Shown in pieces: positions 17,436 to 24,962 of a stretch of 64,000 bases of DNA. The notes under the pieces were generated by a model. It saw nothing but the letters and a program-made list of their open reading frames with translations, had not been told where the DNA came from and ran no database searches. Position 1 is the stretch's first letter. Every line of letters begins with the position of its first letter. The stretch is from Thermomonospora catenispora (lineage in GTDB: Bacteria; Actinomycetota; Actinomycetes; Streptosporangiales; Streptosporangiaceae): NCBI RefSeq assembly GCF_006363815.1, contig NZ_RRYT01000005.1, positions 1-64,000 on the forward strand. Direction: 5' to 3'. The translations under genes and the position numbers were made by a program.

Positions 17436-18788
17436 TCACTGGGCCATGTCGACGAAGCGGCTGTAGTGGCCCTGGAAGGCGACGGTGACCGTGGCGGTGG
17501 GGCCGTTGCGGTGCTTGGCGACGATCAGGTCCGCCTCTCCGGCGCGGGGGGACTCCTTCTCGTAGGCGTCCTCGCGGTGCAGCAGGATGACCACGTCGGC
17601 GTCCTGCTCGATCGATCCGGACTCGCGCAGGTCCGACACCATGGGCCTCTTGTCGGTCCGCTGCTCGGGACTCCGGTTGAGCTGGGACAGCGCGATGACC
17701 GGCACGCCCAGCTCCTTGGCCAGCAGCTTCAGCGAGCGGGAGAACTCCGAGACCTCCACCTGCCGGCTCTCCACCCGCTTGTTGGAGGTCATCAGCTGCA
17801 GGTAGTCGACGATGACCAGGCGCAGGTCGTGCTGCTGCTTGAGCCGGCGGCACTTGGCGCGGATCTCCATCATCGACATGTTCGGGGAGTCGTCGATGAA
17901 CAGCGGCGCCTCGGCCACCTCGCTCATCCGGCGGGCCAGCCGGGTCCAGTCCTCGTCCTGCATGGTGCCCGAGCGCATGGCGTGCAGCGCGACCCGGGCC
18001 TCCGCCGACAGCAGCCGCATGGTGATCTCGTTGCGGCCCATCTCCAGGCTGAAGAACACCGTGGTCAGCCCGTGCTTGATCGCCGCGGCCCGGGCGAAGT
18101 CCAGCGCCAGGGTGGACTTCCCGATGGCGGGACGGGCGGCGATGATGATCATCTGGCCGGGGTGCAGGCCGTTGGTCAGCGCGTCCAGGTCGGCGAAGCC
18201 GGTGGGGACGCCGACCATCTGGCCGCCGCGGCTGCCGATCGCCTCGATCTCGTCGAGGGTGTCCGGCATGATCTCGCTCAGCGGAGCGTAGTCCTCGCCG
18301 GTGCGCTTCTCGGCGATGGCGAAGACCTCGGCCTGGGCGCGGTCGAGCACCTCGTCGGCGTCGGCGCCGTCGGAGGAGTAGCCGAGCTGGACGATGCGGG
18401 TGCCGACCTCCACCAGCCGCCGCAGCACCGCGCGCTCCCGCACGATCTTGGCGTAGTAGGCGGCGTTGGCGGCGGTGGGAACGGTGGCCATCAGGGTGTG
18501 CAGGTAGGAGGCGCCGCCCACCCGGTTGATCTCGCCGCGCTTGGTGAGCTCGGCCACCACGGTGACGGCGTCGGCCGGCTCGCCCCGCCCGTACAGGTCC
18601 AGGATCGTGTCGTAGAGGATCTGGTGGGCGGGCCGGTAGAAGTCCGAGGACTTGAGCACCTCCACCACTTCGGCGATGGCGTTGGGCGACAGCAGCATGC
18701 CGCCGAGCACCGACTGTTCCGCGGTGAGGTCGTGCGGCGGCGTCCGTTCGAACTCCCGCTCGGGCGACCCGAGTTCGGTCACGCTCAC
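17436..18788 (-). CDS. dnaB: Replicative DNA helicase
   Basis: A 450-residue hexameric 5'-3' helicase. The N-terminal domain has 'PPHDLTAEQSVLGGMLLSPNAI'-type sequence. The RecA-like domain has Walker A 'ARPAIGKST', Walker B region 'LVIVDYLQLM', and 'SQLNRSPEQR..KRPMVSDLRESGSIEQDAD'. It ends 'FQGHYSRFVDMAQ', as in Streptomyces DnaB. No intein interrupts it, unlike several mycobacterial dnaB genes. GTG 18788 is preceded by GGGGTGG; ATG 18806 or 18821 are alternatives. The upstream region carries several DnaA-box-like 9-mers. Confidence 0.96.
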   Translation of the reverse strand: MSVTELGSPEREFERTPPHDLTAEQSVLGGMLLSPNAIAEVVEVLKSSDFYRPAHQILYDTILDLYGRGEPADAVTVVAELTKRGEINRVGGASYLHTLMATVPTAANAAYYAKIVRERAVLRRLVEVGTRIVQLGYSSDGADADEVLDRAQAEVFAIAEKRTGEDYAPLSEIMPDTLDEIEAIGSRGGQMVGVPTGFADLDALTNGLHPGQMIIIAARPAIGKSTLALDFARAAAIKHGLTTVFFSLEMGRNEITMRLLSAEARVALHAMRSGTMQDEDWTRLARRMSEVAEAPLFIDDSPNMSMMEIRAKCRRLKQQHDLRLVIVDYLQLMTSNKRVESRQVEVSEFSRSLKLLAKELGVPVIALSQLNRSPEQRTDKRPMVSDLRESGSIEQDADVVILLHREDAYEKESPRAGEADLIVAKHRNGPTATVTVAFQGHYSRFVDMAQ

Positions 18789-18925
18789 GGAACCACCCCG
18801 TCTCATCGCTCCCGTGCGCACCCGCCGCCCCCCCCTGGAGCGGGCGCCGCACCGGCCCAGGAGGCACCTGTCTAACCGGTGGGTACGACATTCTCCGAGC
18901 CCGTCTCACGGGACGCAAAAGCACC

Positions 18926-19002
18926 TGTGGACACTGCTGTGGATGACTTGTGCATACACGCCGAGCGGTGTGTGCACGACCTGTGGACAACCTTGGGGAC
19001 AA
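18926..19002. promoter_or_regulatory. Cluster of DnaA-box-like 9-mers upstream of dnaB
   Basis: Five TGTGNNNAN-like 9-mers lie within 77 bases: TGTGGACAC (18926), TGTGGATGA (18938), TGTGCATAC (18949), TGTGGACAA (18982) and TGGGGACAA (18994). The fourth is the exact complement of TTGTCCACA, the actinobacterial DnaA box. All have the same orientation. The segment lies 138-214 bases upstream of the dnaB start, in the gap before the MATE gene. Confidence 0.55.
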
Positions 19003-19339
19003 CTCCGTCCGTTTTGTCAGCTCACCCTTTCTGACCTGCGAATACGTCATCCACGTGCTGTGGTCGAAGAAAAAACTCGCCGGCGTCCGCACCCGGGGCT
19101 CTGTAAGGTATGTCAAAAAAAGACGCTCATTACAGCACTGGTAGGGTTGGGCTCCCGACATGCCCCCTTCAGCACACGTTCTCCAGCGGCTGTGCGCCCT
19201 CCTGCGGCGAGACGGATCCGGCCGGGCCCGAGCGGCCGAGGCGCGGCCGCACCCCCGCACGCCCGCCCGCCCCCCGGCCGGCGACGCGCCCCCCGGCGAG
19301 GACCCTCCGCCCGCCGGCGACCGGGGGCGGGCGCGGCGC

Positions 19340-20656
19340 ATGCCGCTCCGGCACCCGCACGACCGGGAGATCCTGCGGCTGGCGGTGCCGGCGTTCGGGG
19401 CGCTGGTGGCCGAGCCGCTGTTCCTGCTGGCGGACAGCGCGATCGTCGGGCGGCTGGGCACCGAGCCGCTGGGCGGGCTCGGCGTCGCCGGGCAGGCGCT
19501 GGCCACCGGGGTCTACCTGTTCGTGTTCCTGGCGTACGGGACCACCGCGGCCGTCGCCCGGCAGGTGGGCGCGGGCAACCTGCGGGCGGCGGTCCGGCAG
19601 GGCATCGACGGCATGTGGCTGGCGCTGGCCCTGGGCGCCGCGCTGATCACGGTCGCCCTGCCGCTGGTGCCGCGCATCGTCGAGCTCTTCGGCGCGAACG
19701 CCGCGGTCGCCCCCCATGCGGAGACCTACCTGCGGATCAGCCTGTTCGGCATCCCCGGCATGCTCGTCGTCCTGGCCGGCACCGGGGTGCTGCGCGGGTT
19801 GCAGGACGCCCGGACGCCGCTGGTGACCTCGGTGGGCTCCTTCGGCCTCAACCTGATCCTCAACGCCGTGTTCGTGCTGGCGCTCGGCTGGGGCATCGCC
19901 GGGTCGGCCTGGGGGACGGTGATCGCGCAGAACGCCGGCGCGGCCGTGTACGTGGCCATCGTGCTGCGCGCCGCCCGCCGCCACGGCGCCCCGGTGCGCC
20001 CGTCGCGGTCCGGGCTGCGGGCGGCGGCGACCGCGGGCGTGCATCTGCTGATCCGCACGCTCGCGCTGCGCCTGGTCCTGATCGTGGGGACCGCCGTCGC
20101 CGCGCGGATGGGCACCGCGGAGACCGCCGCCTACCCCGTCAGCTTCCAGGTGTGGACGCTGCTGGCGTTCGCCCACGACGCCATCGCGATCGCCGGACAG
20201 GCCATCACCGGGCGCTATCTGGGCGCCGGCGACGCCCCCGGCGCCCGGGCCGCCACCCGCCGGATGGTGGAGTGGGGCCTGCTGGGCGGCATGGTCTTCG
20301 CGGTCGGGCTGCTGGCGGCGCGCCCCTGGGTGCCCGCCCTGTTCACCTCCGATCCCGGTGTGCACGAGCTCCTGCTGACCGCGCTGGTGCTGGTGGCCCT
20401 GCAGCAGCCGATCGCCGGGGTGGTGTTCGTGCTGGACGGGGTGCTGATCGGGGCGGGCGACATGCGCTACCTGGCGGCCACCACGCTGATCGCCACGGCG
20501 GTGTTCCTGCCCGCCGCGCTGCTGGTGCACCGGCTGGACGCCGGGCTGGTGGGACTCTGGCTGGCGATCGGGCTGTGGATGCTCACCCGGCTGATCACCT
20601 TGAGCCTGCGCGCCCGAGGGGACGCCTGGCTGGTGACCGGTGCGGTGCGCGACTGA
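19340..20656 (+). CDS. MATE-family efflux transporter
   Basis: A 438-residue protein with twelve membrane helices in two homologous halves, opening 'HDREILRLAVPAFGALVAEPLFLLADSAIVGRLG', the DinF-like MATE signature. It would export drugs or metabolites in exchange for Na+ or H+. The ATG at 19340 begins the conserved part; an upstream in-frame start at 19160 would add 60 Pro/Arg-rich residues. A MATE gene also sits between rplI and dnaB in Streptomyces, as I recall, so the place is conserved. Confidence 0.88.
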   Translation: MPLRHPHDREILRLAVPAFGALVAEPLFLLADSAIVGRLGTEPLGGLGVAGQALATGVYLFVFLAYGTTAAVARQVGAGNLRAAVRQGIDGMWLALALGAALITVALPLVPRIVELFGANAAVAPHAETYLRISLFGIPGMLVVLAGTGVLRGLQDARTPLVTSVGSFGLNLILNAVFVLALGWGIAGSAWGTVIAQNAGAAVYVAIVLRAARRHGAPVRPSRSGLRAAATAGVHLLIRTLALRLVLIVGTAVAARMGTAETAAYPVSFQVWTLLAFAHDAIAIAGQAITGRYLGAGDAPGARAATRRMVEWGLLGGMVFAVGLLAARPWVPALFTSDPGVHELLLTALVLVALQQPIAGVVFVLDGVLIGAGDMRYLAATTLIATAVFLPAALLVHRLDAGLVGLWLAIGLWMLTRLITLSLRARGDAWLVTGAVRD

Positions 20657-20853
20657 CCCCACGGATCCCACGCAGGCGGGGTGGACGCCCTGATCCGACG
20701 GCGCTGACCGCGTGCGCGACTGACCCCACGGACCCCACGCAGGTCCGGCCGTGGCCGGTCGGCGGACCGGCTGGTGCGTGCACGGTCATGGGGACACCCC
20801 GACGACGATTTTTCGAAAGTATGCTCGAACGAGCCGCCGATTCCGCTACCCTT

Positions 20854-20869
20854 TCGAACATGTGTTCAA
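20854..20869. promoter_or_regulatory. LexA (SOS) box overlapping the start of a mini-gene
   Basis: TCGAAC-ATGT-GTTCAA matches the actinobacterial LexA consensus TCGAAC-N4-GTTCGA except for one outer base. The ATG of the next gene is inside the box. TACCCT (20847-20852) lies seven bases before that ATG, giving a leaderless promoter that LexA would cover. Confidence 0.65.
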
Positions 20870-21048
20870 CCAAGGGTGAGCGACTGGCCCGTCTGTCCCA
20901 GGCGATCGACGACCTGGCCGCCGAGGGTCTGGTCGGCCTGCCTCCGGAGACGCTGGTGGAACGAGTGGCGGGGATCTGGTCCCTGGTCGAGGGCATCGAC
21001 CCCGAGATCGCCCGCCGCCGCACCCGCTACACCACTCCCCACTGCTGA
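20860..21048 (+). CDS. 62-residue DUF222-like mini-protein under a LexA box
   Basis: MCSTKGERLARLSQAIDDLA... is a helical protein resembling the N-terminal helix region of DUF222/13E12 proteins ('L..AID.LAAE.L.GLP...L.ER'). It stops before any HNH nuclease domain would begin. The ATG lies inside a near-perfect LexA box, as I recall for full DUF222-HNH genes. It may be a trimmed stand-alone regulator or a relic; no HNH sequence follows in the next 600 bases. Induction by DNA damage is inferred. Confidence 0.55.
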   Translation: MCSTKGERLARLSQAIDDLAAEGLVGLPPETLVERVAGIWSLVEGIDPEIARRRTRYTTPHC

Positions 21049-24725: not shown

Positions 24726-24914
24726 TCATCGCCGGACCCCGGGTGCGGACGGCGCGGCCCCGGCGGCCTCGGCCGCGGCGCGCCGCCGCCGGTCGAGCTC
24801 GGCCATGATGTCGGCCATCCGGGCCCGCATCCGGGCCGTCTGGGTGGTCAGCATCGACAGCTCCTCGACCAGCTCGGCGTCACCGATGAGCTCGAGATCG
24901 CTCGTGTCCACCAC
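24726..24914 (-). CDS. 62-residue helical protein behind tandem LexA-like boxes
   Basis: MVDTSDLELIGDAELVEELS... is a single long helical pair ending in an Ala/Arg tail. It resembles the DUF222 segment 'ELV..L......AR..AR....AELDRR'. GGGAGG lies at good distance from GTG 24914. TACGCT and two overlapping LexA-like boxes lie just upstream. It is co-directional with, and 165 bases ahead of, the rpsF-ssb operon. Function unknown. Confidence 0.6.
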   Translation of the reverse strand: MVDTSDLELIGDAELVEELSMLTTQTARMRARMADIMAELDRRRRAAAEAAGAAPSAPGVRR

Positions 24915-24934: not shown

Positions 24935-24962
24935 TCGAAGCGATGTTCGAAGTCGCGTTCGA
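24935..24962 (-). promoter_or_regulatory. Two overlapping LexA-like boxes
   Basis: Read on the minus strand, TCGAAC-GCGA-CTTCGA (24962-24947) and TCGAAC-ATCG-CTTCGA (24950-24935) each match TCGAAC-N4-GTTCGA except for one base. They share four bases, so their centres are 12 bases apart. A -10-like TACGCT (24967-24962) abuts the first. Their position over the promoter fits repression. Confidence 0.5.

Follow-up and report, generated by a model that had tools for sequence, protein, structure and literature searches.

The locus lies in the window, the 64,000 nucleotides of Thermomonospora catenispora contig NZ_RRYT01000005.1 analysed here, and is built around a gene of 62 codons (the mini-gene) whose start codon is embedded in a LexA box. 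To one side lie dnaB and a transporter gene, the latter assigned to MatE by Pfam (E 3.5e-42); beyond the mini-gene an amidase-like gene is followed by rplI, rpsR, ssb and rpsF, all on the reverse strand. Housekeeping gene names in this neighborhood were assigned by reading the sequences. Table 1 gives the positions of the features discussed below.

Table 1. Features of the mini-gene locus (positions counted from the first letter of the window).
Feature	Position	Strand	Remarks
dnaB	17436..18821	-	
MatE-family transporter gene	~19160..20656	+	
Degenerate second LexA-like box TCGAAAGTATGCTCGA spanning the -35 region	20813..20828	+	Predicted; kept in 14 of 75 loci
-10 hexamer TACCCT (TANNNT)	20847..20852	+	Ends seven bases 5' of the ATG
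LexA box TCGAACATGTGTTCAA over the ATG	20854..20869	+	Based on conservation; consensus as before lexA and recA
Mini-gene, 62 codons (MCSTKGERLARLSQAIDDLAAEGLVGLPPETLVERVAGIWSLVEGIDPEIARRRTRYTTPHC)	20860..21048	+	ATG at 20860, TGA ending at 21048; stand-alone relative of the DUF222 N-terminal helical module, by profile methods
Second small gene, 62 codons, GTG start	24726..24914	-	Upstream of and codirectional with rpsF-ssb-rpsR-rplI
Pair of overlapping LexA boxes with a fused -10	24935..24962	-	Upstream of the second small gene

The box, TCGAACATGTGTTCAA, departs from a full palindrome by one mismatch and is the sole zero-mismatch match to the box pattern in the 64-kb window; because the pattern was derived from the mini-gene site itself, the meaningful test is conservation. 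Elsewhere in the genome the same consensus occurs three times before lexA, once before recA, and again before an alkB-like gene (named by inspection; its first 150 residues had no match in Pfam) and a HEPN_SAV_6107 gene. SOS boxes of identical consensus are those of Mycobacterium tuberculosis (PMC4181829) and Streptomyces venezuelae (PMC9380542). Perfect LexA boxes were noted at two other loci. One (L086, G000:C87:61930-61945) stands directly 3' of a -10-like TAGATT and precedes an open reading frame of 112 residues, the C-terminal half of which looks helical and which has no significant match in Pfam; the other (L085, G000:C54:191274-191289) stands beside a second box-like sequence (GTGTTCGAACGAG) and precedes an open reading frame for an AAA_16 ATPase.

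Conservation was assessed in 75 unique close loci, gathered by searching the family together with named genomes (the genome samples being drawn from a larger set); most are from Actinomadura, the others from Thermomonospora, Actinoallomurus and Spirillospora. At the start codon, 67 of the 75 have the 14-mer TCGAACATGTGTTC without change and the remaining eight differ from it by a single base; its position is fixed, and the original prediction of a LexA box over the ATG is thereby borne out. No locus departs from the T directly 5' of the box, and about 96% keep the TA of TANNNT. The -10 hexamer that had been predicted seven bases before the ATG is present at that spacing in T. catenispora, although in most relatives the interval is six bases; the degenerate second box is absent from most Actinomadura. 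On the basis of this operator we regard the mini-gene as a putative member of the LexA (SOS) regulon, and find its regulation by LexA well supported by the sequence.

The start region carries further marks of the operator. Seventy loci have TGT as their second codon and five have CGT, whereas neighboring genes prefer TGC (19 versus 6); TGT despite such a preference is expected if the operator fixes the codon. In 26 of the 75 loci the -10 region supplies a TAG that is an in-frame stop four codons 5' of the ATG, so that nothing longer can be translated there. The long in-frame open reading frame that spans 18652-21048 in T. catenispora was accordingly dismissed as an artefact of high GC-content. 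Given this exclusion of a longer protein, and a TANNNT six to seven bases 5' of the start, the -10 spacing indicates that the transcript is probably leaderless.

The mini-gene is under purifying selection: dN/dS averages approximately 0.16 (median 0.13), with most differences at third codon positions. The protein is 60-62 residues long in the compared loci, nearly all of which have 62 codons; one more locus (L115) reads 51. Two checks proposed with the original prediction, for homologues of the same length elsewhere and for high dN/dS, found the former to be common and the latter not to occur. Decay as a pseudogene is ruled out by dN/dS and the near-constant length. In the checked loci long enough to show both genes, the mini-gene is placed between rplI and dnaB, and the order rplI-mini-gene-(MATE)-dnaB persists at 40-45% identity, also where no MATE neighbor was detected. 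Among distant members, recognized by protein similarity, most begin with TANNNT and then GTGTGTTCGA or ATGTGTTCGA, the left half-site having drifted. No relative of the mini-protein was found among phage and plasmid records and an origin from a mobile element is thus not supported.

Pfam and NCBIfam scans of the mini-protein returned nothing, and the Pfam DUF222 model (PF02720) matched neither it nor any of 22 aligned relatives. A profile of the mini-proteins, used to search 297 genomes of the class, retrieved a second short family (group B) of proteins of some 50-60 residues from other genera of the same family. Although group B was retrieved by protein profile alone, 5' of the start 14 of 15 of its genes show TATGATTCGAAC-N5-TTCGA, or a sequence close to it, in which a -10 runs directly into a LexA box. 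The four group B loci that were checked share a conserved location different from that of the mini-gene, between a YbhB/PEBP-like and a KamA-like gene (both named by inspection). In 375 genomes the group B profile matched full-length proteins from outside the family at E 5.5e-11 and 2.6e-7, with two weaker matches. By Pfam the top three are DUF222 proteins (E 1e-33, 1e-33 and 6e-28); the fourth, truncated by a contig end, is similar in appearance and likewise starts within a LexA box.

Profile-profile alignment (hhalign) relates the mini-gene family (group A) to DUF222 N-termini with P 1.2e-6, or 8e-6 once sequences selected by the query are left out; for group B against the same N-termini P is 8e-10, and for group A against group B 4e-8. 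Sixty column shuffles of each and nine unrelated families drawn from the same region scored far lower, the best P among the unrelated families being 0.0017. With an independent set of DUF222 sequences, drawn by Pfam, P was 9e-4 for group A, the weakest of the comparisons, and 1.2e-6 for group B. In the full proteins matched by group B, Pfam places the start of DUF222 at residue 29-30 or, in another, at residue 63. As read from these alignments, the mini-protein is the helix that precedes DUF222 plus about 25 DUF222 positions; the Pfam model misses it because most of it lies before the start of the model. The mini-protein ends at residue 62, and its relatives end likewise; an HNH motif is absent from it. 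Several full DUF222 genes carry the same unit of -10 and LexA box; one gene opens with gattcgaat-ATGTGTTTAC, its register being that of the mini-gene. Ancestry in the DUF222 N-terminal helical module is therefore well supported by profile methods, and by these alone, as is the proposal that this part exists as a complete, stand-alone short gene. As a separate observation, six full-length DUF222 proteins of one family (L128, L133, L135, L140, L144 and L148) apparently start Met-Cys, as does the mini-protein; their genes mostly have no LexA box at the start codon.

The second small gene in the window heads rpsF-ssb-rpsR-rplI. It is conserved in 40 unique loci, all 40 with TCGAAC-N5-TTCGA upstream, and in 39 the last T of TANNNT is shared with the box. 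Its candidacy as a further DUF222 fragment was not supported (P ~0.003), and it is probably a family separate from the mini-gene. From its position, damage-induced transcription could run through it into ssb.

The predicted structure of the mini-protein comprises three helices arranged as a hairpin (pLDDT 82.7, pTM 0.60). Comparison of the model by Foldseek and VIA-align turned up nothing beyond helical hairpins of a generic kind (E no better than 0.85; Z at most 6.1), and likenesses to CsoR/FrmR and to the ExoVII small subunit, not being significant, were set aside. A profile search of solved structures gave short partial matches only, and none of the solved structures matched a DUF222 protein by sequence. 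The protein has a net charge of -1 and no membrane segment (highest 19-residue hydropathy mean 0.87). It is most likely a soluble protein-protein contact module, which would act as adaptor or inhibitor.

If the protein makes contacts, full DUF222-HNH proteins are candidates: a dedicated partner or inhibitor could pair with their N-terminal helices and tune the nuclease during the SOS response. It is precisely to these helices that the mini-protein is related, the two kinds of gene have a promoter-operator layout in common, and DUF222 genes are enriched among sampled carriers of the mini-gene (27/35 versus 35/86; Fisher p 3e-4, uncorrected for shared ancestry). Against this, eight of the 35 carriers have no detected DUF222 gene: seven sampled genomes, and T. 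catenispora itself, where a DUF222 match is absent even at E up to 1. A DUF222 partner is thus not required, and we judge a dedicated partnership unlikely, while a DUF222-linked role may exist where the two genes occur together. For the original suggestion of a trimmed regulator or partner rather than a nuclease this brings a refinement: partnership with a nuclease cannot fully account for the gene in a genome that has no DUF222 match.

The likeness to DUF222 might itself mislead. Short helical sequences yield chance matches easily, Pfam finds no match, and the predicted fold is a common hairpin, all of which would suit an unrelated family of small SOS helical hairpins that converged on DUF222 through short amphipathic helices. 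Such convergence would leave unexplained why the profile alignments are full-length and collinear when shuffled and unrelated-family controls are far weaker, and why the three strongest matches to group B from outside the family all proved to be DUF222 proteins; we consider it quite improbable. It could also be supposed that the site is a regulatory element for its neighbors, dnaB and the MATE gene, the reading frame being incidental or decaying, a view to which the constant proximity of dnaB, even where no intervening MATE gene was found, lends something. It is very hard to reconcile with strong coding constraint, near-constant length and third-position substitutions, or with a mini-gene that reads away from dnaB, and we give it hardly any credence.

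We therefore think it likely that the mini-gene is a LexA-repressed, probably leaderless gene encoding a stand-alone helical module of the DUF222 N-terminal type. Gene, operator, conservation and relatedness are matters of record in the preceding paragraphs; from them we infer the repression, the leaderless start and the adaptor or inhibitor role, which may be pictured as follows. In the undamaged cell a LexA dimer would sit on the box spanning the starts of transcription and translation and, to judge from this anatomy, occlude RNA polymerase. Upon DNA damage RecA would promote self-cleavage of LexA and the mini-gene would be derepressed. The transcript would probably start at the A of the ATG and be translated without a Shine-Dalgarno sequence, a route for which the M. 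tuberculosis lexA mRNA offers precedent (PMC2897130). Its product, a predicted soluble helical hairpin of 62 residues, would most likely contact other proteins, a mode of action presumed also for the corresponding part of full DUF222 proteins, and its target would be something other than, or additional to, a DUF222 nuclease. A broader proposition, that the DUF222 N-terminal module is an independent SOS effector in Streptosporangiales, with at least two chromosomal families acting on core replication or repair and not on a DUF222 nuclease, we advance tentatively, as possible but short of what we would expect.

None of the open-access papers listed in the literature search appears to describe the mini-gene, and two small-protein families, both apparently undescribed, are thereby added to the SOS response. 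Small LexA-controlled proteins are familiar from SulA, DivS and SidA, the SOS-induced inhibitors of division, beside which the mini-protein may be set by general description; DivS and SidA have a membrane segment, whereas the mini-protein has none. In the mini-gene the operator bases are fixed within the first codons (Met-Cys-Ser). A parallel is offered by lexA of M. tuberculosis, which encodes a different protein and is leaderless, self-regulated and mapped at its 5' end (PMC2897130): there, as probably in the mini-gene, translation and transcription of a LexA-controlled gene start together, the 5' end of the mini-gene being deduced from spacing. The LexA regulon of S. venezuelae uses the same 14-base SOS box, TCGAACNNNNGTTC, its targets including recA and lexA; a stand-alone small protein of DUF222 type is not noted among the selected targets in the portion of that account drawn on here (PMC9380542).

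The nearest relatives are the DUF222/13E12 proteins themselves (PF02720, many with a C-terminal HNH), whose N-terminal helical module is homologous to the mini-protein by profile comparison. Their genes are widespread in actinobacteria, often multi-copy, and damage-induced; in several the promoter or the start codon carries LexA boxes, as in the mini-gene, and the LexA regulon listed for M. tuberculosis includes HNH genes of the 13E12 family (PMC4181829). These proteins run to several hundred residues, whereas the mini-protein has 62 and neither the DUF222 core nor HNH; in contrast to them, the mini-gene is single copy, occupies a fixed chromosomal place and is extremely conserved. As a natural fragment that persists even in genomes with no full-length gene detected, it provides a small handle on the role of the N-terminal module.
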